47,014 nucleotides of DNA from Bacteroidota bacterium (GTDB lineage: Bacteria; Bacteroidota; Bacteroidia; Chitinophagales; LD1). The notes beneath the pieces were generated by a model. It searched no databases. It was given only the letters and a program-made list of their open reading frames with translations, and was not told where the DNA came from. The number at the start of each line of letters is the position of its first letter. Position 1 is the stretch's first letter. Shown here piece after piece: positions 16,467 to 33,659 of this stretch. Where the stretch lies: the NCBI GenBank assembly GCA_026391075.1, contig JAPLES010000025.1:1-47014 (forward strand). The letters run 5' to 3'. A program made the translations under genes and the position numbers.

Positions 16467-16718
16467 TTATCTTTTAGTAGATGGACGAGCTTCGTTCACT
16501 ACCAGGTTTCTTTCAGAAAATTCAACACCGTTCAATTGAGCGATAGCTGTTGCGCCTTCTGAGTCGTTAGGCATTTCAATAAAGCCAAACCCACGGCTGC
16601 GACCTGTATCACGGTCTGTTACGATTTTAACGGATGATACTTCTCCGAATTGTTGAAAAAGATCTTTCAACTGACCTTCCGATGCACGGAAGCTGATGTT
16701 TGCTACGTAAATGTTCAT
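16467..16718 (-). CDS. Single-RRM RNA-binding protein
   Basis: 83 residues, all of it one RRM fold. RNP2 is IYVANI at residues 3-8 and RNP1 is RGFGFIEM at about 42-49, with aromatic residues in the RNA-contact positions. The motif DRDTGRSRGFGF is typical of small bacterial RRM proteins. In Bacteroides such proteins (the RbpA/RbpB group) bind RNA globally and influence small-RNA or carbohydrate regulation, perhaps replacing Hfq. That role is inferred here. A close paralogue lies 102 bp upstream on the same strand. There is a short basic tail (STKR) and no glycine-rich tail. Confidence 0.93.
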   Translation of the reverse strand: MNIYVANISFRASEGQLKDLFQQFGEVSSVKIVTDRDTGRSRGFGFIEMPNDSEGATAIAQLNGVEFSERNLVVNEARPSTKR

Positions 16719-16820: not shown

Positions 16821-17069
16821 TTATGATTTTGGTGGACGGGCTTCGTTTACCACTAAATTTCTTTCGCCAAAAGAAGTGCCGTTCAATTGGGCAATTGCGG
16901 CTGTTCCTTCTGAATCGTTTGCCATTTCAACAAAACCGAATCCACGGCTTCTGCCGGTATCGCGGTCCTTTACAATCTTTGCCGAGGTTACCTCTCCAAA
17001 TTGCTGAAATAAATCTTTTAACTCCTCTTCTGTTGCTCGGAAACTGATGTTTGCTACGTAAATGGTCAT
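16821..17069 (-). CDS. Single-RRM RNA-binding protein, paralogue
   Basis: 82 residues, one RRM with RNP2 IYVANI (3-8) and RNP1 RGFGFVEM (about 42-49). It shares most residues with the protein at 16467-16718, so the pair arose by tandem duplication. The differences cluster in helix 1 (EEELK against EGQLK), in the loop before strand 4 and in the C-terminal tail (PPKS against STKR). Expected to be a cytoplasmic RNA chaperone or post-transcriptional regulator. It has a roughly 100-nt leader if the promoter at 17178-17185 is right. Confidence 0.93.
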   Translation of the reverse strand: MTIYVANISFRATEEELKDLFQQFGEVTSAKIVKDRDTGRSRGFGFVEMANDSEGTAAIAQLNGTSFGERNLVVNEARPPKS

Positions 17070-18302: not shown

Positions 18303-19580
18303 CTACTGTAAATGCTCCGCCTTCCATTTCATAGCGGTTTCCACGCGCACTCTACCGCTGGGGTGGTCAAAGAAAAATATCTCTTCCCATTTGCCCGGGT
18401 TCAGCTTGCGGTATTCCGAAAGCATAATATCCACATGCGCTTCGGCATCGGGCTCGCGCGCAGCGTTTAAACCAAACTGGTCGGCCTCCATTTCCTGTGT
18501 GCGAATCATGGTATTGGTTATCGGAGTAGCAATAAACGTAACCACTGAAATAATTACAGCCAGCAAAGGCAGCCCCGCAATATCGCTGATGTCTTCAATG
18601 CCGAGTGTGCCGCCCCACTTGCTCAATACTTTATTGAGCGCCCAGTTTACAATAGCAAACACGAGGAAGATAAACACACCAAATTCTATAATGCCTTTGT
18701 AAACGTGGTTGAGAACATAGTGCCCCATCTCGTGCCCCATCACCGCGCGCACCTCGGCAGGTGTGCAGCGGTTCAGCAAATTATCGTTGAGCGAAATGCG
18801 CGTAGTGCTCGCAAAGCCGCTCACGTTGGCACTCACGCGCTTGCTCTGTTTACTCGCGTCAAACATATACACGTTAGTGGCAGGTATGCAGTTAGCGCGC
18901 GCCATCGAAAGAATTTCTTCTTTCAGTTTGCCTTCGGTCAGTGGTTTGTAATCATTAAATATGGGATCTAAAAACACAGGCGCTATAAACGACACGAACA
19001 TGATAAACAGAATACTTCCGCTTGCGCCCCAAATCCACCAACTCTTGCCCGCCTTGCGCAGTGCTATATAAAGAGCCATTATTAAAGGAGCACCGAAAAG
19101 CAAACCAATGGCAATGCCTTTCAGGTTCTCCACGAACCACGCACTGAAGGTTAAGTTCGATAAACCATAAGCATGTTCGCGGAAATAATCCTGATATACA
19201 CTAAACGGAAAAGTAATAGCCCACACCAACAGAATATACAGCGCGGCATAAATCATGTTCTGTAAGTTTTTGCTTTTCACTTTCGTGGCTATGCTCTTCA
19301 CGCGTCTCGACAAACCTAAATGCAAAAAGATAAACGCCACTGCAAAGCCGTAAAGCAAATTCCAAATCTGCAACCAGTATCCGCCCTCGAAATAACTATC
19401 GCTCTTCGCCTTCGCCTCTGGCGAAAGCATGTTTAAATAATGCTGCGTTGCCGAATCAATATTGAAAGCGGGAGTGGTTACAGCCGTTGTGACACTATCA
19501 ATAACTACGGCAGCACTGTCTTGCGCAAACAGAGTTACCATCAACAGCATGGTGAAAAAGAAGAGGGTGGTTTTTTTCAT
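18303..19580 (-). CDS. M48 family metallopeptidase, Ste24-like
   Basis: 425 residues. The N-terminus looks like a signal peptide or first membrane segment (about 3-20). Several membrane helices follow (about 70-90, 108-127, 150-172, 188-212), then the zinc site HEMGH at 283-287, two more helices (about 296-320 and 335-356), and EMEADQFG with the third ligand Glu365. The C-terminal FFDHPSGRVRVETA resembles the conserved end of CAAX protease 1 (Ste24). Bacterial Ste24/HtpX-type enzymes take part in membrane-protein quality control; the substrate here is unknown. It is transcribed divergently from the cysteine operon. Confidence 0.9.
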   Translation of the reverse strand: MKKTTLFFFTMLLMVTLFAQDSAAVVIDSVTTAVTTPAFNIDSATQHYLNMLSPEAKAKSDSYFEGGYWLQIWNLLYGFAVAFIFLHLGLSRRVKSIATKVKSKNLQNMIYAALYILLVWAITFPFSVYQDYFREHAYGLSNLTFSAWFVENLKGIAIGLLFGAPLIMALYIALRKAGKSWWIWGASGSILFIMFVSFIAPVFLDPIFNDYKPLTEGKLKEEILSMARANCIPATNVYMFDASKQSKRVSANVSGFASTTRISLNDNLLNRCTPAEVRAVMGHEMGHYVLNHVYKGIIEFGVFIFLVFAIVNWALNKVLSKWGGTLGIEDISDIAGLPLLAVIISVVTFIATPITNTMIRTQEMEADQFGLNAAREPDAEAHVDIMLSEYRKLNPGKWEEIFFFDHPSGRVRVETAMKWKAEHLQ

Positions 19581-19689: not shown

Positions 19690-19773
19690 ATGAAATCAAA
19701 TATGTTCCATAGTCTTTGTTGTATCTGTTGCTGCTGCTGCGGTGTAACAGGTCATGGCTATAGGTGGACGTAG
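19690..19773 (+). CDS. Cysteine-rich leader peptide of an attenuator
   Basis: 27 codons with stop TAG. Seven of them are cysteine codons (19717-19722 and 19726-19740), giving the stretch CCICCCCC at residues 10-17. The segment lies 117 bp upstream of the cysteine synthase start, followed by an antiterminator segment and a perfect terminator. The arrangement matches leader peptides of amino-acid attenuators such as trp and his: low Cys-tRNA would stall the ribosome on the run. An alternative start at Met5 (19702) changes nothing. Poly-cysteine leader peptides are known in mycobacteria; whether this Bacteroidota case has been described I cannot check. The logic is inferred, but the codon run and hairpins are direct observations. 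Confidence 0.82.
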   Translation: MKSNMFHSLCCICCCCCGVTGHGYRWT

Positions 19774-19813
19774 TCAATAGAATATTCCGTAAGCGTATAT
19801 ATAAGCTCCACCT
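19762..19813 (+). promoter_or_regulatory. Antiterminator pairing in the cysteine leader
   Basis: AGGTGGA (19762-19768, at the end of the leader coding sequence) is exactly complementary to TCCACCT (19807-19813), which is most of the left arm and part of the loop of the terminator. A ribosome stalled on the Cys codons (ending at 19740) would leave AGGTGGA free to pair. One that reaches the stop codon at 19771-19773 would cover it and let the terminator form. Confidence 0.7.
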
Positions 19814-19832
19814 CGTGTGGAGCTTTTTTTTT
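19803..19832 (+). terminator. Intrinsic terminator (attenuator) before cysM-like gene
   Basis: A perfect 9-bp stem, AAGCTCCAC (19803-19811) with GTGGAGCTT (19817-19825), a 5-nt loop and a run of nine T (19824-19832). It stands only 15 bp before the start codon of the synthase, on its coding strand, where a terminator makes sense only as an attenuator. Confidence 0.88.
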
Positions 19833-19847
19833 GTCAAAACCAGAAGT

Positions 19848-20804
19848 ATGAACACAGCAACTATAACCGAACTAACCGAACTAACCGAAGTGAAAAACGA
19901 ACTGAAGCAAAAACTTTTTACTGTCAGCAAGAAGATTGGCAACACTCCGTTGATTCCAATCCGCCATCTGCATGATAATAAAAAGGTGCGCATTTATGCC
20001 AAAGCCGAATGGCAACAACTCTCGTGCAGCGTGAAAGCACGCGCGGCATTCAACATTATTCGTCATGCGATTGAAAACGGTGAATTGGACGAAAACAGAA
20101 TTTTGCTCGATGCCACCAGCGGCAACACCGGCATAGCTTATGCGGCTATTGCTAAAGAACTCGGTTTGCGTGTGGTGCTTTGTCTGCCAGCCAATGCTTC
20201 GGCTGAGCGCAAGAGCATTCTGCAAAGTCTCGGTGCTCAAATTATTTACACTTCTAAATTTGGCGGAACCGATGAAGCGCAGGAAGTAGCCGCTGAACTC
20301 GCGCTTCAAAACCCCGACAAATATTTTTATGCCAGTCAGTATACCAACGAACAAAACTGGAAAGCGCATTACTACGGCACGGCTGTAGAAATAGCACGCG
20401 ATGCTCCGCCCTTCACGCACTTCGTTGCAGGGCTTGGCACCACTGGAACTTTTGTAGGCACCGGCAGAAGACTGAAAGAATTTAATCCCGCTGTTCAACT
20501 GATTGCGCTTCAACCCGACCTTGCTCTGCATGGTTTAGAAGGTTGGAAACATTTAGATACTGCTAACGTGCCGCAAATTTACGATGCCTCTGTGGCGGAT
20601 AGAATTCTCGAAGTGAGTTCTAATCGTGCACACGACATTATTAAAGAAGCCGCGCGCAAAGAAGACTTGTTGCTGAGTCCTTCATCAGCGGCAAACCTGG
20701 CTGGTGCGTTACAAATAGCAAGTGAAATAGAAGAAGGCGTAATCATTACCGTGCTACCCGACAATGCCGACAAATACAGTGAAATCATTAAACAAATCTT
20801 CTAA
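19848..20804 (+). CDS. cysM: CysM-like cysteine synthase (PLP-dependent)
   Basis: 318 residues, fold type II PLP enzyme. The Schiff-base lysine is Lys63 in CSVKARAAF, the phosphate loop is TSGNTG (90-95), the second loop is THFVAGLGTTGTFVGTG, and SPSSAANLAGA lies near the C-terminus. Several stretches (THFVAGLGTTGT, GAQII....GG) are closer to mycobacterial CysM, which uses O-phosphoserine and sulfide carried on CysO, than to ordinary CysK. From memory, the phosphoserine-binding Arg of that enzyme appears as Lys here, a conservative change. The start at 19848 is chosen because an in-frame extension to 19764 would be translated through the attenuator. It is followed after 2 bp by the JAMM protease gene. 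Confidence 0.9.
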   Translation: MNTATITELTELTEVKNELKQKLFTVSKKIGNTPLIPIRHLHDNKKVRIYAKAEWQQLSCSVKARAAFNIIRHAIENGELDENRILLDATSGNTGIAYAAIAKELGLRVVLCLPANASAERKSILQSLGAQIIYTSKFGGTDEAQEVAAELALQNPDKYFYASQYTNEQNWKAHYYGTAVEIARDAPPFTHFVAGLGTTGTFVGTGRRLKEFNPAVQLIALQPDLALHGLEGWKHLDTANVPQIYDASVADRILEVSSNRAHDIIKEAARKEDLLLSPSSAANLAGALQIASEIEEGVIITVLPDNADKYSEIIKQIF

Positions 20805-20806
20805 CC

Positions 20807-21271
20807 ATGATAAAGATTAATTCAGTTATCCATCAATTCTTAGCAGACGATGCGCTTCGCACTTTTCCTGATGAATGCTGCGGCTTTCTCCTCGGCACCG
20901 AAGAAGGAGAGCAGCGCGTTGTAGAAGAAATCATCGTAGTGAACAATGCAAAAGATAGCGACAAGCGCAGACGTTTTGAAATCACTCCGCTCGATTATTT
21001 AAAAGCTGAGCGTACTGCCGATGAAAAAAATCTCTTGTTGCTTGGTGTGTATCATTCGCATCTAAATCATCCTTCTGTTCCAAGCGAACACGACCGTGTA
21101 GTAGCGCAGCCTTATTTCAGTTATGTCATTATAGCCGTTCGCGAAAACGAATTTGTATCGCTGCAATCGTGGCGGTTGAATGACGATTCACAATTTGAAG
21201 AAGAAAAAGTAGAAGGCTATTTACCGCAGTCGGCAGAATCAACTCCGCGACCTTATCCATCATCACGATAA
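20807..21271 (+). CDS. Mec-like JAMM (MPN+) metalloprotease
   Basis: 154 residues. The JAMM zinc-site set is complete: Glu23 in PDECCGFLLG, and His83, His85, Ser93 and Asp96 in YHSHLNHPSVPSEHD. In M. tuberculosis, Mec releases cysteine from the CysO-cysteine adduct made by CysM. The present neighbours, a CysM-like synthase before it and a sulfur-carrier fusion after it, indicate the same step. A possible extra role is to cut the carrier from its E1 fusion partner after Gly90. The last 30 residues are acidic and proline-rich, probably disordered. Cytoplasmic, same operon (2 bp after the synthase, 31 bp before the next gene). Confidence 0.9.
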   Translation: MIKINSVIHQFLADDALRTFPDECCGFLLGTEEGEQRVVEEIIVVNNAKDSDKRRRFEITPLDYLKAERTADEKNLLLLGVYHSHLNHPSVPSEHDRVVAQPYFSYVIIAVRENEFVSLQSWRLNDDSQFEEEKVEGYLPQSAESTPRPYPSSR

Positions 21272-21302: not shown

Positions 21303-22721
21303 ATGGCAACTATTATTATTCCAACTCCGCTACGTAAGTTTACTAATCAGCAAAACAAAGTAACCGTTGGCGGCACTACTATTAAAGAAAGCATTGATGA
21401 GCTAACACTCAATTTCCCCGACCTCAAAAAAAATCTGATTGATGAAAACGGAAAGCTTCGCAGCTTCGTCAATATTTTTGTTGGTGATGACGACATCCGC
21501 GATTTGAATGAAGAAAACACTGCGGTGAAAGCCGAAACGGTTATCAGCATTATTCCCGCCATTGCAGGCGGAAGCGCTGACTACGAAAATATTACTTTCA
21601 GCAAAGAAGAACTGGCGCGCTACAACCGCCACATTATTATTCCGGGCTTTGGTTTAGAAGCGCAGAAAAAATTAAAAGCAGCAAAAGTTTTAGTTGTTGG
21701 CTCGGGCGGTTTGGGAAGTCCTGTCCTCTTATATTTAGCTGCCGCTGGTGTAGGCAATATCGGCATCGTTGATTTCGATGTGGTGGACGATAGCAATCTT
21801 CAGCGTCAGGTTTTATTTGGAGTTAGTGAAGTGGGCAAATCAAAAGTGGAAGCTGCAAAGGCGCGCATACAAAGTTTAAATCCGCACATCAACGTTACTA
21901 CTTACAATACACAGCTTACTTCTAAGAATGCCTTAGAAATAATAAGTCAGTATGATGTAATAGCCGATGGCACCGATAATTTTCCTACCCGTTATTTAGT
22001 AAACGATGCCTGCGTTATTGCGGGCAAGCCAAATGTATATGCCAGCATCTTCCAGTTCGAAGGGCAGGTTTCTGTTTTTAATTACACCAATGCCAAAGGT
22101 GAAACAGGACCTAACTACCGCGACCTTTATCCTAGTCCTCCGCCACCGGGCTTAGTGCCTAACTGTGCCGAAGGCGGAGTGCTGGGCGTTTTGCCGGGAA
22201 TCATCGGCAGTCTTCAGGCAAATGAAGTTATCAAAGTAATTACCGGTGTTGGTGAAACTTTAAGCGGAAGATTTTTTGTGTTCGATGCGCTAACTTTCGA
22301 AACGCGCACATTAAAAATTAGCAAGCGTGCAAACGCTCCTGTAGTAAAAGAACTGATTGACTACGAACAGTTCTGCGGTGTAAAAGCAGTGGAGAAAAAA
22401 ATAAAAGAAATAAGCGTAGATGAATTTGTGCAATGGCAAAAAAGCGGAGAAGATATTCAGGTGATTGATGTGCGCGAACCTACCGAGTATGAGCAGGTGA
22501 ATATTGGTGCTTTACTTATTCCGCTGGCAACTGTAGCGGAACGCGCTAACGAAATAAGCAGGGATAAAAAAGTGGTGGTGCATTGTAAGCTTGGCGGACG
22601 CAGTGCTAAAGCCATACGCGAACTGGAAGAGAAATTCGGCTTCGACAATTTGTATAATCTCAAAGGCGGCATTACCGCTGTTGAGCAGGAAAGCGATTTG
22701 TTGAAAGCCGTAAACGTTTAG
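21303..22721 (+). CDS. CysO/ThiS-type sulfur carrier fused to MoeZ-like E1 and rhodanese
   Basis: 472 residues in three parts. Residues 1-90 are a beta-grasp ThiS/MoaD/CysO-type domain ending in Gly89-Gly90 (AIAGG). Residues about 95-345 are an E1-like adenylyltransferase with GSGGLGS (133-139), NLQRQ (165-169), DGTDN (222-226), YRDLYPSPPPPG and the candidate catalytic Cys288 in VPNCAEGGV. As in MoeZ, the MoeB-type CxxC zinc pairs are absent. Residues about 365-472 are a rhodanese domain with active-site Cys428 in VHCKLGGRS. Expected reaction: adenylation of the carrier C-terminus, then sulfur transfer from the rhodanese to give a thiocarboxylate for cysteine synthesis. The oddity is that the carrier's GG end is internal, joined to the enzyme meant to activate it. 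Confidence 0.92.
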   Translation: MATIIIPTPLRKFTNQQNKVTVGGTTIKESIDELTLNFPDLKKNLIDENGKLRSFVNIFVGDDDIRDLNEENTAVKAETVISIIPAIAGGSADYENITFSKEELARYNRHIIIPGFGLEAQKKLKAAKVLVVGSGGLGSPVLLYLAAAGVGNIGIVDFDVVDDSNLQRQVLFGVSEVGKSKVEAAKARIQSLNPHINVTTYNTQLTSKNALEIISQYDVIADGTDNFPTRYLVNDACVIAGKPNVYASIFQFEGQVSVFNYTNAKGETGPNYRDLYPSPPPPGLVPNCAEGGVLGVLPGIIGSLQANEVIKVITGVGETLSGRFFVFDALTFETRTLKISKRANAPVVKELIDYEQFCGVKAVEKKIKEISVDEFVQWQKSGEDIQVIDVREPTEYEQVNIGALLIPLATVAERANEISRDKKVVVHCKLGGRSAKAIRELEEKFGFDNLYNLKGGITAVEQESDLLKAVNV

Positions 22722-24110: not shown

Positions 24111-27100
24111 ATGAAAAAGTTTACCAATTACTTCAAAACGCTTTGCATCTTCTGCTTCTCAGCAGCAACGCTAATTGTAAATGCACAGGCTCCGTCAAAC
24201 GATTTAATATGTGGTGCTACACCTATTTCGGTAGGTATTGGTTGCACACAAAGCACTAACGTAAACGCCACTATTACGGGTAGCCCTGCTGCTGCCACTT
24301 GTTGGGCACCAAACAATGCCAGCAACGATGTTTGGTTTTCGTTTGTAGCTACTACAGTAAATATGACAGTGAGCACCGATGCATCGGGTCTTACACTCAC
24401 TAACACACAAGTAGCTATCTATAGTTCTTCTACTAACAACTGTACAGGCACACTTACCTTAGTGGGTTGCGGTGAAAATGGTGGAACCAACGTAGCCAAC
24501 AATTCTATTACAGATTTATCCCTTGTTCCCGGTAATACTTATTTTATACGTGTTGACGGAAACGGAACTGCCACAGGAACTTTTTGTGTGAGTGCCTACG
24601 ATACGTATACTCCCGGTTCTACTCCATGCGAAGCGCAGATAGTAAGTCCTAACAGTGCTACCTGTGCTACCACAGCGGGTAATTTAGTTACGAATTCAAC
24701 TGTTCCTGCTGTTTCTTATCCGGTGATTGGTGTTGATTATGGCGGTTGCGATAATGAAACAAGCCAATTTGGAGTATGGAACGTTTTTACTGCTAATAGC
24801 ACCAGCGTTACTTTAACTAACCGAAGCGGTGGAGGAAGAGACTATACGCTTTTCTCAGGACCTTGCTCTAGCCTTACATGGATTAGCTGTACTTCTATTC
24901 CTAATAATAACGGAACAACGTTGTTCAGTGGTTTAACGGTAGGTACTGATTATTATTTACTCACTACTTTGTCAAATGGTGCTACTACTGCACCTGTAGT
25001 TACCGACCTCTGTGTGACCAATACAATTCCTTGCACACCCCCAACTAATAATACTTGTGCTACAGCAATGTCTATTACTGCTAACACCTTATATAATGTA
25101 ACCAACTATTGCGCTACGGCTGACCAGCCACCCGCCTTATGTTCAGGTACACTTCAAAACAATATCTGGTTTAACTGGACAACTCCGGTTGGCTGGACAG
25201 GTCAGGCTTATTTCCAGTTGTTTGAAGAAAACTGCCGTTCAGGAGCTACTTCACAAGGTATGCAGTGTTCGGTTTATCAAAACACCGTGGTGTGTGGTGG
25301 AACTGCCAATTGCGTAGCTACATCCAATACCATTACAGACAATAACGTAAACGTTGTTTGGACTCCTGTGCCCGGAACTACTTACCTGATTAACTACGAT
25401 GGTTATTCAGGCGAGGTATGTAACATGAATTTCGAAATTACGAACACAGCTGCTGTTGTTGTTATTTCGGTGAACTCACCCGTTATATGTTTAGGAGAAT
25501 CTGTAGTACTTACTGCCACCAGTAATGCAACAGGATATCTTTGGTCAACAGGTCAATCAGGAAGTTCAATTACCGTTAGTCCTACTGTAACTACTTCTTA
25601 TACCGTTTCAGCAACAGCTGGTGGCACAGGTTCAGCAGTGGCTACGGTAACGGTTAATCCAATTCCTGCAGCACCAACATTGGGAAGTAACAGTCCTGTT
25701 TGCGAAGGTTCAACTTTGGACCTTACCGCCAGTACCATTGCTAACGCTACTTATTCTTGGACAGGTCCAAATAATTTTTCGTCTACTCAGCAAAATCCTT
25801 CTATTGCAAGTGCAACAGTTGCAGCCAGCGGTACTTACACAGTTACCGATACATTACTTGGTTGCGGAAGTTTGCCTGCTCACATCACTGTAGTGGTTAA
25901 TGAAATTCCACCAGCACCACAGGCATCGAGTAACAGTTCAATATGTTCGGGTGATACGTTAAGACTTTTTGCTTCTACTGTAGCTAACGTAACTTATAGC
26001 TGGACAGGTCCAAACGGATTTACTTCTTCGGCACAAAACCCAGTTATTGTTGGTGCTACTGCGGCAGATGCCGGAACATATTCGGTAACTACTACCAGAA
26101 ACGGTTGTACCAGTCCTGCTGCAACAACTACTGTGGTGATTAATGCAATTCCATCAACAACTGCGGGAAGCAATAGTCCACTCTGTGCAGGCGGAACATT
26201 GAACTTAACCGCTACGAACGTTTCGGGCGGTAGTTTTACATGGACAGGGCCAAACGGATTTACTTCTAACCAACAAAATCCTTCTGTTGCTAATACTACA
26301 GTTGCTGATGCGGGAACGTATACGGTGAACGTAACGGCTGCAGGTTGCGGAAGTGCTCAGCCTTCATCAACTGTTGTTGTTATCAATCCGGTTAATCCTC
26401 CGGTTGCAAGTAGTAACTCTCCTATATGTGCGGGAAATACGTTGAATTTAGCCGCAACTACAATTGCGGGAGCTACTTATGCATGGACAGGACCAAACGG
26501 TTTTGTATCTAACCAGCAAAACCCTTCTATATCTAACGCTACTGTTGCAGCTTCAGGAACTTATTCTGTAGTGGCTACCGTTAGCGGTTGTTCAAGCAGT
26601 TCACCGGCTACTACCGATGTAGTGGTGAATCCTATTCCGGGGGTTACAGCAGGAAGCAATAGCCCTGTGTGTGCAGGTTCTGATATCAACTTAACGGCTA
26701 CAACTTTTGCAGGTGCTACCTATTCATGGACAGGCCCGGGTGGATTTACATCTACTCTTCAAAATCCTACGATTACAAATGCCACAGTTGGTATGTCGGG
26801 AACCTACACGGTTACTTCAAGTGCCAATGGTTGTTCAGGTGGTGCGCCATCTTCAACCACTGTTGTGGTAAATCCGGTAACTCCACCGGTTGCAGGAAGT
26901 AACAGTCCTTTATGTGAAGGAGCTACCTTAAATTTAACAGCAAGTTTTATTGTGGGAGCTACATATGCATGGACAGGTCCAAACGGATTTACTTCTACTC
27001 TTCAGAACCCAAGTATTACTCCGGTTACTGTTGCAACAGCGGGAGTTTATTCAGTTATAGCAAACGTGAGTGGTTGTAACAGTTCGGTACCTGCTACTAC

Positions 27101-30100
27101 AACAGTAGTAGTTAATCCGGTTCCAACTATTACAGCAAGCAGTAACAGCCCGATATGCGCAGGAGGAACTTTAAACTTAACGGCTACTACTTTTGCAGGA
27201 GCTATTTATAGCTGGACAGGTCCTAACGGATTTGCCTCTACGCTGCAAAATCCTTTCATCAATAATGCCACCACAGCGGCTTCGGGTATTTATTTCGTAG
27301 CAGCAAGTGCTGGCGGTTGTACATCTAACACTGCGGCTTCTACCACTGTTGTGGTTAATCCGATTCCATCGGCTCCTACAGCAAGTAGCAATAGCCCGAT
27401 ATGTGAAGGAGCTACTTTAAATTTAGCTGCCACTACTGTTGCTAATGCAAGTTATACATGGCAAGGACCAAACGGATTTTTCTCAAACGTACAGAATCCT
27501 TCTATTGGTGGTGCTACACTGGCTGCTGCGGGAACCTATATATTTAGAGTAACTGTGAACGGCTGTGTTAGCCCTGCTGCAACAACAGTTGTTGTTATAA
27601 ACGGAACGCCCGTTGCTCCAACAGCATCGAGCAATAGTCCTGTTTGCGAAGGCTCAACTATTCTTTTAACTGCCAGCACAATTCCGGGTGGAACTTATAG
27701 CTGGACTGGACCAAACGGATTTACTTCTTCATCGCAAAATCCTAGCGTACCAAACGCTACTTTTGCTAACGGAGGAACTTATTTTGTTTTTGTAACCGTA
27801 AACGGTTGCACGGGTATTACAGCAACAACAGTAGTAACGGTGAACAAAGTTCCGGCTGCTCCTACCGCAACTAGCAACAGTCCTGTATGTGTGGGTGGAA
27901 CCTTACTTTTATTTGCCAGCACAATTCCTAATGCAACTTATGTTTGGACAGATCCAATCGGTTTTACTAATCCAACTCAAAATCCCGTTGTTCCTAACAT
28001 CTCTGCTTTAGTAGCTGGTGTTTATTCAGTAGTTGCAACCGTGAACGGATGTTCAAGTCTTCCGGCTACAACTTTAGTGGTTATCAGTCCAGTTCCTACG
28101 GCAACTTTTACTTCAACAGCACCGGTTTGTGTGGGCACGGGAGTTGACTTTACTAATAGCGGTTCCACAGGTGTTGGGTATACATTCTTCTGGGATTTTG
28201 GTCCGGGTTCAAACCCACCAACTTCTACTTTAGAAAACCCTACCGGAATTACATACTCAAGTTCGGGACCTAAAACAGTTACTTTAACTGTAACAGGTCC
28301 TGGATGTTCAACAACCGATTCGGCTGTTATCAATATTACAACTGTTCCATTAGCTGACTTTACTACTAATGGACCTGTATGTTCTTTTGCAGACCCTGTA
28401 ATATTTACAGATGCCAGTACGGGAACCATCACTTCTTATTTTTGGGATTTTGGTCCGGGTGCTACACCGGCCACTTCGACTTCTGCCGGTCCTATTACAG
28501 TTGTTTACAGTTCTAACGGAACAAAAACAGTTATGCTTACTGTTACCAGTGGTGCATGTACAAACACTACAACCAAAACGGTTGATGTGGGTGTTGTAGG
28601 TGCTGACTTTACTTCTTCATCACCACCGGGTGGTGATGGTGGCTGTTTAGGTAATGGAGAAAACTTCTACAACATTGGAAGTTCGGGAAGCGGTGCATTG
28701 CACTTCTGGAATTTTGGTGCAGGTGCTACTCCGGCTACTTCTACTTTAGAAAACCCTACCGATATTGTTTACGCTACTTCGGGAGCAAAAATTGTAACAC
28801 ATACAGTTACTGTTCCACTATGCGGACTGACAGAAACTATCACACATATTATTACCATTAACCCATCACCGGCAGCTTCGTTTACTTCTTCGGCTTCGGC
28901 TTGTGCTAACGGTCCTGTTGATTTTACAAATACAGGAAGCACAGGAGTTGGCTTCTCTTACTTCTGGGATTTTGGCGCAGGAACTCCGGTTACTTCAGTA
29001 GCTGAAAATCCTACAGGAATTATTTACGCAACATCAGGAACTAAGGTGGTTACGCTTTCAGTTACTAATGAATTTTATTGTGTAACGCTGGCTACGCAAA
29101 CTATCATTATTGGCTCAACACCGGTAGCATCGTTTGCTTCTACTGCACCACAATGTACCGGTTCATCAGTTGATTTCACTAACACAGGAACATCATCTGG
29201 TGTTAGCTGGTCATGGAACTTTGGAGGCGGTGCAACTCCTGCCACAGATACCGTTCAAAATCCAACAGGCGTAGTTTACTCAACACCGGGAGTTAAGGTG
29301 GTTACGCTTACAGTTGGCAATGCCGCTTCAGGATGTTCAGCAACAGCAACCAACACAATTCTTATTCACCAAACACCGGTGGCTTCGTTCACTTCAACGG
29401 CACCACAATGTGCTTTTGCTAATGTTGACTTTACGAATACAGGAAGCACAGGTGGTAACTGGTCGTATGATTGGAACTTAGGTCAGGATGGAATTCCGTT
29501 TGTGGCTTCATCTGAAAATATTACCGGTGTTATTTATCGTAGCTCAGGAATTAAAACTGTAACTTTTACTATTTCAGATCAAAATTGTTCGAACACAATT
29601 TCTCAGGACATTTTGATTAACGAAACGCCAACAGCAAGATTCACTTCAACTGCTCCTGTTTGTACAGGCCAAGCAGTAGATTTTGCAAACACCGGAACAT
29701 CGGGTGGTGTTACCTTCTCCTGGAATTTTGGTGCGGGTTCAAACCCAAGTTTAGGCAGCGTTGAAAATCCAACCGGAATTGTTTACTCAACACCGGGCGT
29801 TAAATTGGTTCAGCTTTCTGTTACCAATGTAACTACAGGATGTGTAGCTAATGTGACCAACACCATTGTTATTCACGAAACACCTACAGTAACTTTTACT
29901 TCCACTGCACCACAATGCGCTGGAACAGGAATTGATTTTACGAATACAGGCAGCACCGGAGGCGGTTGGGCTTATGTTTGGAGTTTTGGACAAGGGGCAG
30001 ACCCTTCGGGTTCTTCTGCCGAGAATCCTTTGGGCATTGAATACAATTCGGGCGGAACCAAAACGGTTACACTCACTATTTCAAACCAAAATTGTACACA

Positions 30101-33100
30101 GACTTCTTCGCAAACTATTGTGGTGAACGAAACACCAACAGCTAGTTTCACTTCTACAGTTCCTGTGTGCACAGGATTGCCGCTTAACTTTACAAACACT
30201 GGAACAACTGCAGGAGTAACTTGGTCTTGGGATTTTGGAGCAGGAGCAACACCGGCTACATCAACCGACCAAAACCCTACGGGTATTGTTTACGCAAATG
30301 GTGGAATTAAAATAGTAACACTTACTACTACGAATACAGCTACAGGTTGTAGTGCTACTGCCACAGTTGCCATCAATATTAATCAGGGACCTACAGCTAC
30401 CTTTACTTCTACTGCTCCACAGTGTGCTAATAGCCCTGTTGACTTTACCAATACAGGAAGCACCGGTGGTAATTGGTCTTACTCTTGGAACTTAGGTCAA
30501 GGTGCAAACCCTGGAACTTCTACTGCCGAAAACCCAACAGGTATTTTATACAGCAGTGCAGGAACTAAAACGGTAACCTTTACTATAAGCGACCAAAACT
30601 GTACACAGACTTCTACTCAAACTATTGTGATTAACGAAACACCGGTAGTAAGCTTTACTTCGGCAGCACCACAGTGCACCGGCTTACCGGTTAACTTTAA
30701 TAATACCGGAACTAGCACAGGAGTAACCTGGAGTTGGAACTTTGGTTCCGGTGCAAATCCTGCAACGGATACAGTTCAAAATCCTGTAGTGATTTATTCA
30801 ACAGCGGGAATTAAAACAGTTACCTTAACTACTACTAATACCGCAACAGGTTGTGCAGTAACAGCTACTAATACGGTAAACATTAATCAAACACCTACGG
30901 CTACTTTCTCTTCAACAGCTCCACAGTGCGCAAACACAGGAATTGATTTTACCAATACCGGAAGCACCGGTGGTAACTGGTCTTATACATGGACATTCGG
31001 TCAGGAATCAAATCCTGCTATGTCCAGTGCAGAAAATCCAACAGGTATTACTTACAGTACTTCGGGAACTAAAACGGTAACCTTTACTATTTCTGACCAA
31101 AACTGTACACAGACTTCAACACAAACAATTGTGGTGAATGAAACACCGGCTGCAAGTTTTACTTCTACTGCACCACAGTGCACCGGATTGAATGTTGACT
31201 TTACCAATACTGGAACAACCAGTGCAGGTGTAACCTGGGCATGGGATTTTGGATCAGGTGCAACACCTGCTACTTCTACCGATTCAAATCCAACCGGAGT
31301 AGTTTATTCAACCGCAGGAATTAAAACGGTAACCTTAACTATTACGAATACAACAAGTGGATGCGCAGTAACTGCTACTAGTACGATTAAAATTAATCTT
31401 ACACCTACTTCAACATTTACTTCTACGGCTCCGCAATGTGCTAACACTGCCATTGATTTTACAAACACAGGAAGCACAGGAAGCAACTGGTCTTACACCT
31501 GGACTTTTGGTGTAGCTTCTAATCCTTCTACTTCATCGGCCGAAAATCCTTCGGGCATTACTTATGGAATTGGCGGAACTAAAACAGTAACCTTTACTAT
31601 TGCTGACCAGAATTGCACCAATACTTCTTCACAGGTCATTACAATTAATGAAACACCTACAGCAAGTTTCACTTCTACTGCACCACAGTGCACAGGACTT
31701 GGAGTTGATTTCACTAATACAGGAACCGCCACCGGTGTTACCTGGACTTGGAACTTTGGCTCTGGTGCTTCACCGGTTACTTCAACCGATGAAAATCCAA
31801 CAGGTATAGTGTATTCTACTTCGGGAATTAAAACAGTAACCTTAATTACCACCAACTCAACCACCGGATGTTCTTCCACAGTAACTAATACGTTGAATAT
31901 TCATCAGTCGCCAACGGCTACCTTTACTTCTACTGCTCCACAATGTGCTAATTCAGGAGTGGATTTTGTGAATACAGGAAGCACGGGAAGTAACTGGAGT
32001 TACAATTGGAATTTTGGATTAGGTGCAAACCCTGCTACATCGGTGGCGGAGAATCCTACGGGAATTACTTACAGTTCTTCGGGAACTAAGACAGTGAGCT
32101 TTACTATCAGCGACCAAAACTGTACGCAGACTTCTACACAAACCATTACTATTGATGAAACACCGGTAGCTAACTTTACTTCTACTGCACCACAGTGCAC
32201 AGGCTTGCCGGTTAACTTCACCAATACAGGAACGGTAACAGGAGTTACTTGGGCTTGGACTTTTGGTTCTGGTGCAACACCTGCTAGTAGCACAGATGAA
32301 AATCCAACAGGCGTAGTTTATTCGACTGCAGGAACTAAGTTTATTACAATGACTACTACCAACACGGTAACCGGCTGTATCAGCAATGTAACAGGTACCA
32401 TCAACATCAATCAAACGCCAACCGCTACGTTTAGTTCTAACGCACCACAGTGTGTAAGTTCAGCTATTAACTTTACAAACACCGGAAGCACCGGAAGCAG
32501 TTGGAATTATTCTTGGACCTTTGGACAAGATGCGGTGCCTGCTGTTTCTACTTCAGAAAATCCAGGTGGTGTGTTGTATACAAGCGCAGGAACTAAAACG
32601 GTAACGTTTACTATTTCTGATGCCAATTGTGTAAATACTTCTACGCAAACTATTGATGTAAATGCATTGCCGGTGGCAGATGCAGGAGCCGATGTAACTA
32701 TCTGCGCTAACAGAACTGCGCAACTGGGAAGCCCATCAATTGCAGGTAACACTTACAACTGGTTCCCTTCAACTACACTTTCTAATCCCTTTATTTCTGA
32801 CCCAAGTGCAAGCCCTGTGGCGAGTGTTACTACTTACTTAGTGCAAGTAGTAAATACAGCTTCAGGTTGTTCGAATACCGATCAAGTTACCGTAACTATG
32901 TTGCCTCCGCTTCATGCTAATGCAGGACCCGATGTGGAAATTTGCGACCATGAAAGTGTTCAAATAGGAGCAGCTTTGATTGAAGGACAATTCTACTCTT
33001 GGACTCCAACTACAGGATTGAGTGACCCTACTTCACCTAAACCAATTGCTAACCCAAGTGTAACTACTACTTATACTTTACAAGTTACCGATACAGTAGG

Positions 33101-33659
33101 TTGCGATTTCATTGCCGATGATGTAACCGTAGTTGTTCATCCGCTGCCAATGGCAAACGCAGGTGCAGATGATACGATTGGAAAAGGTGCTTCTATTCAG
33201 TTGATTGGAACAGGAGGTATTCAATACTTCTGGACTCCTGTAACAGGATTGAACAACGCTAATATTTTCAATCCTATTGCCAGCCCCGACAGCAGCACAG
33301 ATTATGTGTTAACCGTAACCGACTTGTTTGGTTGTGTAAATACTGATACGGTAAATATTCATGTCTTCGGATTTACTGAACCTTACTGGTTGCCTTCGGC
33401 TTTTTCACCAAACGGTGACGGACACAATGATGTGTTGTATGTGCGCGGAAGTAAATTCCTGACCTTCGATTTTTCAATTTACAACCGATACGGTGAATTG
33501 ATTTTTGTTTCTAAAGATATTAATGTGGGCTGGGATGGTAACAGCCAATACACGGGCGATGAAATGCCTTCGGATGCTTACGTTTATAAAGTAGACGGAG
33601 TAGTGGCAGAAGATGGTACCGTGGTTAAGGCGAAAGGCTTAGTTAACTTAGTAAGATAA
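24111..33659 (+). CDS. Giant T9SS type B adhesin with Ig-like and PKD repeats
   Basis: 3182 residues, complete. The signal peptide (about 1-26, ending NAQA) precedes an N-terminal region of pre-peptidase/CBM-like beta-sandwich domains with paired Cys (about 27-445) and one Ig-like domain (about 446-518). Ten 81-residue Ig-like domains (519-1328) and 18 PKD domains of about 85 residues (1329-2853; FTNTG, W.W.FG, NPTG, Y...G.KTVTLT) follow. Then come three ADAG domains like those of the other adhesin and a gliding-motility-type C-terminal domain (FSPNGDGHND, SIYNRYGELIF, AYVYKV). It is expected on the cell surface after type IX secretion, helped by the PorP/SprF protein encoded 49 bp downstream. 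It is very rich in Thr, Ser, Gly and Asn and poor in Lys and Arg outside the ends. Confidence 0.94.
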   Translation: MKKFTNYFKTLCIFCFSAATLIVNAQAPSNDLICGATPISVGIGCTQSTNVNATITGSPAAATCWAPNNASNDVWFSFVATTVNMTVSTDASGLTLTNTQVAIYSSSTNNCTGTLTLVGCGENGGTNVANNSITDLSLVPGNTYFIRVDGNGTATGTFCVSAYDTYTPGSTPCEAQIVSPNSATCATTAGNLVTNSTVPAVSYPVIGVDYGGCDNETSQFGVWNVFTANSTSVTLTNRSGGGRDYTLFSGPCSSLTWISCTSIPNNNGTTLFSGLTVGTDYYLLTTLSNGATTAPVVTDLCVTNTIPCTPPTNNTCATAMSITANTLYNVTNYCATADQPPALCSGTLQNNIWFNWTTPVGWTGQAYFQLFEENCRSGATSQGMQCSVYQNTVVCGGTANCVATSNTITDNNVNVVWTPVPGTTYLINYDGYSGEVCNMNFEITNTAAVVVISVNSPVICLGESVVLTATSNATGYLWSTGQSGSSITVSPTVTTSYTVSATAGGTGSAVATVTVNPIPAAPTLGSNSPVCEGSTLDLTASTIANATYSWTGPNNFSSTQQNPSIASATVAASGTYTVTDTLLGCGSLPAHITVVVNEIPPAPQASSNSSICSGDTLRLFASTVANVTYSWTGPNGFTSSAQNPVIVGATAADAGTYSVTTTRNGCTSPAATTTVVINAIPSTTAGSNSPLCAGGTLNLTATNVSGGSFTWTGPNGFTSNQQNPSVANTTVADAGTYTVNVTAAGCGSAQPSSTVVVINPVNPPVASSNSPICAGNTLNLAATTIAGATYAWTGPNGFVSNQQNPSISNATVAASGTYSVVATVSGCSSSSPATTDVVVNPIPGVTAGSNSPVCAGSDINLTATTFAGATYSWTGPGGFTSTLQNPTITNATVGMSGTYTVTSSANGCSGGAPSSTTVVVNPVTPPVAGSNSPLCEGATLNLTASFIVGATYAWTGPNGFTSTLQNPSITPVTVATAGVYSVIANVSGCNSSVPATTTVVVNPVPTITASSNSPICAGGTLNLTATTFAGAIYSWTGPNGFASTLQNPFINNATTAASGIYFVAASAGGCTSNTAASTTVVVNPIPSAPTASSNSPICEGATLNLAATTVANASYTWQGPNGFFSNVQNPSIGGATLAAAGTYIFRVTVNGCVSPAATTVVVINGTPVAPTASSNSPVCEGSTILLTASTIPGGTYSWTGPNGFTSSSQNPSVPNATFANGGTYFVFVTVNGCTGITATTVVTVNKVPAAPTATSNSPVCVGGTLLLFASTIPNATYVWTDPIGFTNPTQNPVVPNISALVAGVYSVVATVNGCSSLPATTLVVISPVPTATFTSTAPVCVGTGVDFTNSGSTGVGYTFFWDFGPGSNPPTSTLENPTGITYSSSGPKTVTLTVTGPGCSTTDSAVINITTVPLADFTTNGPVCSFADPVIFTDASTGTITSYFWDFGPGATPATSTSAGPITVVYSSNGTKTVMLTVTSGACTNTTTKTVDVGVVGADFTSSSPPGGDGGCLGNGENFYNIGSSGSGALHFWNFGAGATPATSTLENPTDIVYATSGAKIVTHTVTVPLCGLTETITHIITINPSPAASFTSSASACANGPVDFTNTGSTGVGFSYFWDFGAGTPVTSVAENPTGIIYATSGTKVVTLSVTNEFYCVTLATQTIIIGSTPVASFASTAPQCTGSSVDFTNTGTSSGVSWSWNFGGGATPATDTVQNPTGVVYSTPGVKVVTLTVGNAASGCSATATNTILIHQTPVASFTSTAPQCAFANVDFTNTGSTGGNWSYDWNLGQDGIPFVASSENITGVIYRSSGIKTVTFTISDQNCSNTISQDILINETPTARFTSTAPVCTGQAVDFANTGTSGGVTFSWNFGAGSNPSLGSVENPTGIVYSTPGVKLVQLSVTNVTTGCVANVTNTIVIHETPTVTFTSTAPQCAGTGIDFTNTGSTGGGWAYVWSFGQGADPSGSSAENPLGIEYNSGGTKTVTLTISNQNCTQTSSQTIVVNETPTASFTSTVPVCTGLPLNFTNTGTTAGVTWSWDFGAGATPATSTDQNPTGIVYANGGIKIVTLTTTNTATGCSATATVAININQGPTATFTSTAPQCANSPVDFTNTGSTGGNWSYSWNLGQGANPGTSTAENPTGILYSSAGTKTVTFTISDQNCTQTSTQTIVINETPVVSFTSAAPQCTGLPVNFNNTGTSTGVTWSWNFGSGANPATDTVQNPVVIYSTAGIKTVTLTTTNTATGCAVTATNTVNINQTPTATFSSTAPQCANTGIDFTNTGSTGGNWSYTWTFGQESNPAMSSAENPTGITYSTSGTKTVTFTISDQNCTQTSTQTIVVNETPAASFTSTAPQCTGLNVDFTNTGTTSAGVTWAWDFGSGATPATSTDSNPTGVVYSTAGIKTVTLTITNTTSGCAVTATSTIKINLTPTSTFTSTAPQCANTAIDFTNTGSTGSNWSYTWTFGVASNPSTSSAENPSGITYGIGGTKTVTFTIADQNCTNTSSQVITINETPTASFTSTAPQCTGLGVDFTNTGTATGVTWTWNFGSGASPVTSTDENPTGIVYSTSGIKTVTLITTNSTTGCSSTVTNTLNIHQSPTATFTSTAPQCANSGVDFVNTGSTGSNWSYNWNFGLGANPATSVAENPTGITYSSSGTKTVSFTISDQNCTQTSTQTITIDETPVANFTSTAPQCTGLPVNFTNTGTVTGVTWAWTFGSGATPASSTDENPTGVVYSTAGTKFITMTTTNTVTGCISNVTGTININQTPTATFSSNAPQCVSSAINFTNTGSTGSSWNYSWTFGQDAVPAVSTSENPGGVLYTSAGTKTVTFTISDANCVNTSTQTIDVNALPVADAGADVTICANRTAQLGSPSIAGNTYNWFPSTTLSNPFISDPSASPVASVTTYLVQVVNTASGCSNTDQVTVTMLPPLHANAGPDVEICDHESVQIGAALIEGQFYSWTPTTGLSDPTSPKPIANPSVTTTYTLQVTDTVGCDFIADDVTVVVHPLPMANAGADDTIGKGASIQLIGTGGIQYFWTPVTGLNNANIFNPIASPDSSTDYVLTVTDLFGCVNTDTVNIHVFGFTEPYWLPSAFSPNGDGHNDVLYVRGSKFLTFDFSIYNRYGELIFVSKDINVGWDGNSQYTGDEMPSDAYVYKVDGVVAEDGTVVKAKGLVNLVR
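25665..28094 (+). repeat. Ten 81-residue Ig-like repeats
   Basis: Ten tandem domains averaging exactly 243 bp. Consensus elements are SNSPVCEG, TLNLTAT, YSWTGPNGFTS, QNPS, GTY.V and GC, then VVVNP. One Cys near the start and one near the end of each could form a disulfide in the periplasm or outside. The spacing is nearly invariant although codon use differs between copies. Confidence 0.88.
28095..32669 (+). repeat. 18 PKD repeats with an A-B super-repeat
   Basis: 18 PKD domains of about 254 bp. From 29121 to 32669 the last 14 alternate strictly. One type has TNTGT..GVTWSW, ending TNT.TGC...TNTININQT. The other has TNTGSTGGNWSY, ending TISDQNCTQTSTQTIVINET. The duplicated unit is thus two domains (about 507 bp), present seven times. 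The first four domains are more divergent. Confidence 0.88.

Follow-up and report, generated by a model that had tools for sequence, protein, structure and literature searches.

The window, the whole 47,014-nucleotide stretch of DNA analysed here, carries a short Cys-rich open reading frame (ORF) next to a set of cysteine genes (Table 1). This leader ORF sits between a divergent ORF on the minus strand (18303-19580) and a cysM-type gene, the first of the operon, which is followed by a mec-like gene and by a gene in which CysO is fused to MoeZ. Pfam domains of the three downstream genes fit cysM, mec, cysO and moeZ, in keeping with the initial annotation, which had placed the leader before cysteine synthesis genes. 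The best NCBIfam model for the cysM-type gene is TIGR01138 (cysM), at 275 bits and thus under its cut-off of 394. We take cysM, mec, cysO and moeZ to be the protein-thiocarboxylate cysteine synthesis set known from mycobacteria. Mycobacterial MoeZR takes part in cysteine biosynthesis, according to the accessible part of one report (PMC3227635).

Table 1. Features of the leader region and the cysM operon in the window
Feature	Position	Strand	Details
Leader ORF	19690-19773	+	27 aa, MKSNMFHSLCCICCCCCGVTGHGYRWT then stop; 7 Cys codons of 27
Cys codons of leader ORF, positions 10, 11, 13-17	19717-19722, 19726-19740	+	Read from the sequence
Predicted antiterminator strand AGGTGGA	19762-19768	+	In the last three sense codons of the leader, 21 nt past the last Cys codon
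Intrinsic terminator	19803-19832	+	Arms 19803-19811 and 19817-19825, 9 perfect bp; loop 19812-19816, 5 nt
T run of terminator	19824-19832	+	Nine T, the first two also within the 9-bp stem
cysM-type PLP-dependent cysteine synthase	19848-20804	+	First operon gene; Pfam PALP 1.6e-63
mec-like JAB/JAMM metallopeptidase	20807-21271	+	Pfam Prok-JAB 6.6e-22
CysO (ThiS/MoaD-like sulfur carrier) fused to MoeZ (ThiF/MoeB + rhodanese)	21303-22721	+	Pfam ThiS, ThiF, Rhodanese

Elsewhere in the window, a single ORF at 24111-33659 encodes 3182 aa with many similar repeats and is probably a large surface protein. Two adjoining, very similar short proteins are encoded on the minus strand at 16467-16718 and 16821-17069; from a sequence motif, we presume them to be RRM-like RNA-binding proteins.

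Leader, terminator and predicted antiterminator in the window

The leader stop lies 29 nt before the terminator hairpin, and the terminator ends 15 nt before the cysM ATG at 19848. AGGTGGA can pair without mismatch with TCCACCT at 19807-19813, that is, with five bases of the left arm and two of the loop, and because of this overlap the terminator and antiterminator pairings are mutually exclusive. The initial annotation had named these parts. Translation of the ORF bears out its poly-Cys leader with seven Cys in 27 codons, the coordinates agree with its perfect terminator carrying nine T at 15 bp from the CysM-like start, and the complementarity that it reported was found again. Its broader claim, that all parts of an attenuator sensing Cys-tRNA stand in one stretch, holds for the anatomy, and the comparative predictions that follow from it were largely borne out.

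Two other origins for the region were rejected. The terminator is unlikely to belong to an upstream gene, the nearest long ORF on that side being on the opposite strand. For a riboswitch or other known RNA family, an Rfam scan of the window at gathering score returned a tRNA as its sole match, with none on the leader-terminator stretch; two matches in the leader region were both far below that score.

We propose that the region very probably controls cysM-mec-cysO-moeZ by ribosome-mediated transcription attenuation, with charged tRNA-Cys as the quantity sensed, a reading drawn from sequence. RNA polymerase would transcribe the leader with a ribosome trailing on the poly-Cys ORF. When Cys-tRNA is ample, the ribosome would get to the stop codon and mask AGGTGGA, the 9-bp terminator would form, and transcription would end before cysM. 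When Cys-tRNA is scarce, the ribosome would stall in the Cys run and leave AGGTGGA free to pair with TCCACCT once this has been transcribed, so that no terminator would form and the operon would be read. From this arrangement we infer that the leader is translated, that the ribosome stalls when Cys-tRNA is low, and that termination and readthrough occur.

The spacing of the parts and the modelled folds are consistent with such a switch. In the model, the ribosome was assumed to reach about 11 nt beyond the codon in its A site, and the polymerase was placed just past the loop. When the modelled ribosome sits at the last Cys codon, the best fold contains exactly the AGGTGGA-TCCACCT helix; a ribosome at the stop codon covers AGGTGGA, and the terminator alone forms. 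A stop-codon ribosome is thus predicted to mask the strand and a ribosome in the Cys run to free it, with the limit that other local folds are predicted for a ribosome at Cys codon 10 or 13, where the strand is likewise free. For a 1:2 pause or protector hairpin, the window offers at most a local hairpin around AGGTGGA, in some of the modelled folds.

The folding energies count in part against the mechanism. Even when the ribosome has halted at the last Cys codon, the terminator is the more stable structure (-20.0 kcal/mol, against -11.0 kcal/mol with the antiterminator enforced). Because the terminator remains the more stable fold at equilibrium, antitermination would have to be kinetic; the switch in trp attenuation is likewise assumed to be kinetic. 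The whole leader folds modestly better than shuffled sequence (z -1.91; 7 of 200 shuffles did as well), and the case therefore rests on comparison and not on folding energy.

Conservation and co-variation at cysM loci

Loci carrying cysM orthologues were drawn from 60 related genomes, from a contig scan of named relatives (best 80 of 208) and from 395 genomes of the phylum. Because the best 80 of 208 were kept, the scan of named relatives leans to close ones. Of 115 loci entered, eight near-duplicates and two with less than 250 nt upstream were removed, leaving 105. The 60-genome search contributed L001, L010, L011, L012, L014 and L016 only: L004-L009 and L013 were left out as repeats, being from the same genomes as L033, L034, L046, L066, L048, L047 and L114, and L015 and L022 as fragments. 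Seventeen CysK-like paralogue loci (L002, L003, L017-L021, L023-L032) served as controls, 16 with enough upstream sequence. One fixed detector was applied throughout, with the upstream stretch ending at the match start and longer loops allowed; a leader was called at three or more Cys in five codons, with a stricter tier of five or more in eight.

A leader with at least three Cys in five codons was found at 87 of the 105 loci, one with at least five in eight at 70, an intrinsic terminator at 76 and the ordered pair of leader and terminator at 74. For the same four classes, 1050 dinucleotide shuffles gave 42, 0, 13 and 0, the 105 reverse strands 7, 0, 12 and 0, and the 16 paralogue upstream regions 0, 0, 2 and 0. 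An earlier detector setting had returned leader plus terminator at 70 of 107 loci and in none of 535 shuffles, 107 reverse strands and 17 paralogues. Two groups of loci count against the mechanism, namely the 18 of 105 without a Cys leader by the detector and the 13 of 105 with a leader but no ordered terminator. In two of those scored leaderless (L062, L076) a Cys-rich frame is visible that the detector did not accept. The 18 leaderless rows are scattered on the FastTree tree (14 changes, shuffled mean 16.9), and this scatter suggests repeated loss or missed cases.

Where the sequence extends more than 2700 nt beyond the cysM start (67 loci), mec, cysO and moeZ are always present, and the gene set is incomplete in 6 of the 38 loci with less downstream sequence. 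In three of these (L043, L090, L110) the sequence ends early. The other three, each with about 2.4 kb of sequence, show mec alone (L133, L137) or none of the three genes (L142), and all three are leaderless. CysO and MoeZ are fused in frame at 27 of 99 loci (the window, L034-L037, L039-L041, L049, L050 and others) and are separate genes at 72. In the fused protein the Ala-Gly-Gly terminus of CysO becomes internal. Should CysO have to carry sulfur on a free terminus, the fusion would need cutting, perhaps by the neighbouring JAB peptidase.

Runs of four to eight TGY triplets occur at 72 loci, with T as third base in 314 and C in 96. As TGY repeats read as Leu or Val/Ala in the other frames, all three frames were compared. 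In the Cys frame, an ATG-started ORF spans the repeat at 68 of the 72 loci, against 9 in the Leu frame and 3 in the Val/Ala frame, which disfavours a poly-Leu or poly-Val/Ala reading. With GTG, TTG and CTG also taken as starts, the counts become 72 for Leu, 71 for Cys and 24 for Val/Ala, and Cys and Leu are not separated. Among the 74 ordered pairs, the leader stop precedes the terminator by a median of 28 nt (quartiles 25-33, range 19-60) and the last Cys codon precedes it by a median of 67 nt (quartiles 59-73, range 47-99).

The two alternative pairings co-vary. Summed over the 74 loci, the duplex energy of each leader end with the 5' arm and loop of its own terminator is -1200.9, against a mean of -903.4 (sd 25.4) for permuted partners, and 0 of 2000 permutations were as low. 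Locus by locus the effect is graded, as expected because many loci share similar arms: the native pairing beats all 40 random swaps at 14 of 74 loci and falls in the best tenth at 37, with a median rank of 0.125. GGTGGAG stands with CTCCACC in many Chitinophagaceae, GGTGAGG with CCTCACC also occurs, and in Saprospiraceae and Cytophagales GGAAAG-like strands pair with CTTTCC. The initial annotation had asked whether the Cys run, the stop position and the hairpin pairing are kept in relatives; on these three points, the loci above largely answer in its favour.

Leader plus terminator is also restricted to cysM among the poly-Cys frames of five genomes, the window's own and four others. In the window's genome, four consecutive TGY triplets occur at 60 sites, giving 54 distinct frames with at least four consecutive Cys codons, and among these frames a terminator follows the stop within 110 nt at the cysM leader alone. 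In the other four (Niastella vici, L109; Puia dinghuensis, L087; Flexithrix dorotheae, L060; Reichenbachiella faecimaris, L074), 59 sites with five consecutive TGY, all of them read, gave 45 frames with at least five consecutive Cys; the terminator test covered those in which no more than 40 codons separate the run from the stop. A terminator follows four of the frames; each genome has one of them, and it always stands before cysM. The corresponding His pattern, five consecutive CAY, has 23 sites in the window's genome. A His-rich frame (HHHHHRHHRHR) with a terminator-like hairpin downstream lies at L217 (G000, contig C14, near 204620); it could be a His leader or chance.

These comparisons bear on two alternatives. 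That a low-complexity TGY repeat lies by chance near an ordinary hairpin might be thought plausible from the 60 TGY sites of the genome, yet a leader with a terminator arose in 0 of 1050 shuffles against 74 of 105 loci. The shuffle controls, the pairing permutations and the genome-wide frame checks together refute this reading, to which we assign a negligible probability. Poly-Cys peptides can bind metals, and the small ORF, having a start and a stop and then a terminator, could be a real gene for a Cys-rich peptide (metal-binding or modified) with its own ordinary terminator and no relation to cysM control. The leader peptide is identical at L033; other relatives have different peptides with a comparable run of Cys, and outside that run the sequence varies between clades. 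Constraint at the end of the ORF lies in RNA pairing with the terminator, and in the five genomes checked the combination of leader and terminator stands nowhere but before cysM. We regard a peptide gene as very improbable.

Layouts, promoter and spread

The leader occurs in four layouts before cysM. The first is the single three-segment attenuator of the window. In the second, at 12 of 105 loci (L035, L037, L061, L065, L073, L077, L079, L090, L092, L098, L110, L114; 8 of the 12 in Saprospiraceae), two Cys leaders stand in tandem, and two terminators were found at 10 of the 12. The third is a four-segment form with a 3:4 terminator in group f34 (L126, L127, L131, L132), where 1:2 pairings of -24 to -38 kcal/mol and 2:3 pairings of -46 to -50 kcal/mol were calculated, both without a shuffle control; the detector found no ordered leader-terminator pair at these four loci.

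In the fourth layout the leader is present and no intrinsic terminator was detected, at 7 of 7 loci (L106, L118-L123). L106 is on a Balneolaceae contig and forms one branch with L118-L123 (support 98), a placement by which the latter probably belong to Balneolaceae too. Six of the seven leaders end in CCCS and the stop, their Cys codons reaching one codon before it. The spacer is C-rich and G-poor in all seven (C/G 1.5-2.7; the median for sequence following the terminator at other loci is 1.32), and at L120-L123 a TTACCG...CGGTAA hairpin follows the leader stop. We would guess that the output here is Rho-dependent or translational.

The same features lend some weight to a rival for the region as a whole, in which the leader acts on translation or on Rho-dependent termination and not on intrinsic termination, as has been considered for mycobacterial poly-Cys leaders. 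Actinobacteria offer a precedent, as leaders with Cys runs near the stop and without terminators are described there and Rho is suggested in the part of the report available (PMC1262725). In the Balneolaceae branch, the seven loci without a detected terminator, their C-rich, G-poor spacers and the six Cys runs near the stop all fit it. However, the window and 73 other loci have a terminator at a narrow distance, with an arm that co-varies with the leader end, and for these the rival is improbable. Attenuation by an intrinsic terminator, with a predicted response to cysteine, is clearly to be preferred to each of the alternatives.

It is tempting to speculate, and we would give it about an even chance, that a poly-Cys sensor of cysM-mec-cysO-moeZ is ancient and has been kept across Bacteroidota and neighbouring groups, while the output has been exchanged between a three-segment attenuator standing alone, a pair of complete attenuators in series, a trp-like form with four segments and, in Balneolaceae, a terminator-less form that may act via Rho. 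If this is true, two terminators in series would give a steeper response than one.

In a flavobacterium, the main sigma factor has TAnnTTTG as its -7 element, according to the available text of one study (PMC9723704). A TAnnTTYG box lies within 70 nt upstream of the leader at 35 of 80 loci with at least four Cys, against 2 of 77 control windows. The exact box is absent from the window's own promoter region, which counts against the mechanism.

In the sample of 395 genomes of the phylum, a true cysM orthologue (at least 344 bits, followed by a gap to 279) is present in 43. A Cys leader is present in 28 of these 43: the detector found it in 23 of 30, and a looser pattern that makes no start-codon demand in 5 of the remaining 13; the subset of 30 includes the window, and three near-duplicates are counted with their twins.

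Relation to known leaders and attenuators

To our knowledge, the coupling of ribosome and polymerase in Bacteroidota has been little studied. Promoters and translation initiation in this phylum differ from those of enterics, as the accessible text of one study sets out (PMC9723704), and the leader would give a phylum with such unusual features a directly testable and widely conserved example of amino-acid attenuation. It would also tie the protein-thiocarboxylate (CysO) route to cysteine demand and offer a natural series of output designs on one sensor, tandem attenuators included. The four other species named above are among the carriers of the leader.

Attenuation in bacteria is reportedly treated in a 2010 work by Lopatovskaya, and the poly-Cys leader ORFs of Mycobacterium reportedly in one of 2020 by Canestrari. 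Within Bacteroidota, Flavobacterium psychrophilum has been suggested to use leader-peptide attenuation before amino-acid operons (PMC9723704), and short ORFs reminiscent of leader peptides have been noted in Bacteroides thetaiotaomicron (PMC7366714); the available portions of both sources do not name cysteine in this connection. No description of a Cys leader in Bacteroidota was found in the accessible parts of the open-licence literature, including PMC4833913, PMC13236596 and PMC2965389. To this extent the literature supports the initial annotation, which knew of none in the phylum, as it does on poly-Cys leaders of mycobacteria (PMC1262725). The initial annotation had credited attenuation of this kind to trp and his in enteric bacteria. 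Its account of earlier work needs amending, since a Cys attenuator with a terminator has already been proposed in Rhodobacterales (PMC8632094) and leader-peptide attenuation in the flavobacterium named above.

That proposal concerns uORFC-8-2, before cysS, a Cys-codon attenuator with an intrinsic terminator whose tandem Cys codons are usually at positions 14-15 (PMC8632094, from the portion available). Both it and the window are predicted ribosome-mediated attenuators with Cys codons and an intrinsic terminator. Whereas uORFC-8-2 has two Cys codons and precedes cysS in alphaproteobacteria, the window has cysM, Cys codons at 10, 11 and 13-17, and relatives in Bacteroidota. With gene, Cys positions and taxonomic group all different, the window falls outside uORFC-8-2 as the available text defines it.

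Poly-Cys leader ORFs before cysteine genes are described in Mycobacterium, Propionibacterium and Bifidobacterium, with no conserved terminator hairpin in the text consulted (PMC1262725). The window resembles these in its Cys run within a short leader ORF before cysteine genes. Unlike them, it and 73 other loci have a terminator hairpin, and the window thus lacks the mycobacterial arrangement of a Cys run near the stop with no intrinsic terminator; the Balneolaceae loci come closer, 6 of 7 having this layout. For the tandem form, the nearest parallel is Salmonella mgtCBR, with tandem attenuators and two short ORFs in one leader in the part of the report available (PMC3641672). Here the two short ORFs are both Cys leaders arranged serially, 10 of the 12 loci having two terminators.

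In the trp and his leader-peptide attenuators of enteric bacteria, a leader ORF and mutually exclusive antiterminator and terminator precede the biosynthetic operon, which lies directly downstream. The window shares with them a codon run for the pathway's own amino acid, the exclusive pair of structures and a first operon gene directly after. It differs in sensing, as we read it, cysteine, and in having three pairing segments with no clear 1:2 helix, the four-segment form being that of group f34. The class of mechanism is therefore classical, and Cys leaders are already known in Actinobacteria and before cysS in Rhodobacterales. What is apparently new is the operon, the spread over 28 of 43 genomes, the tandem leaders, the four-segment form and the Balneolaceae form without a detected intrinsic terminator.
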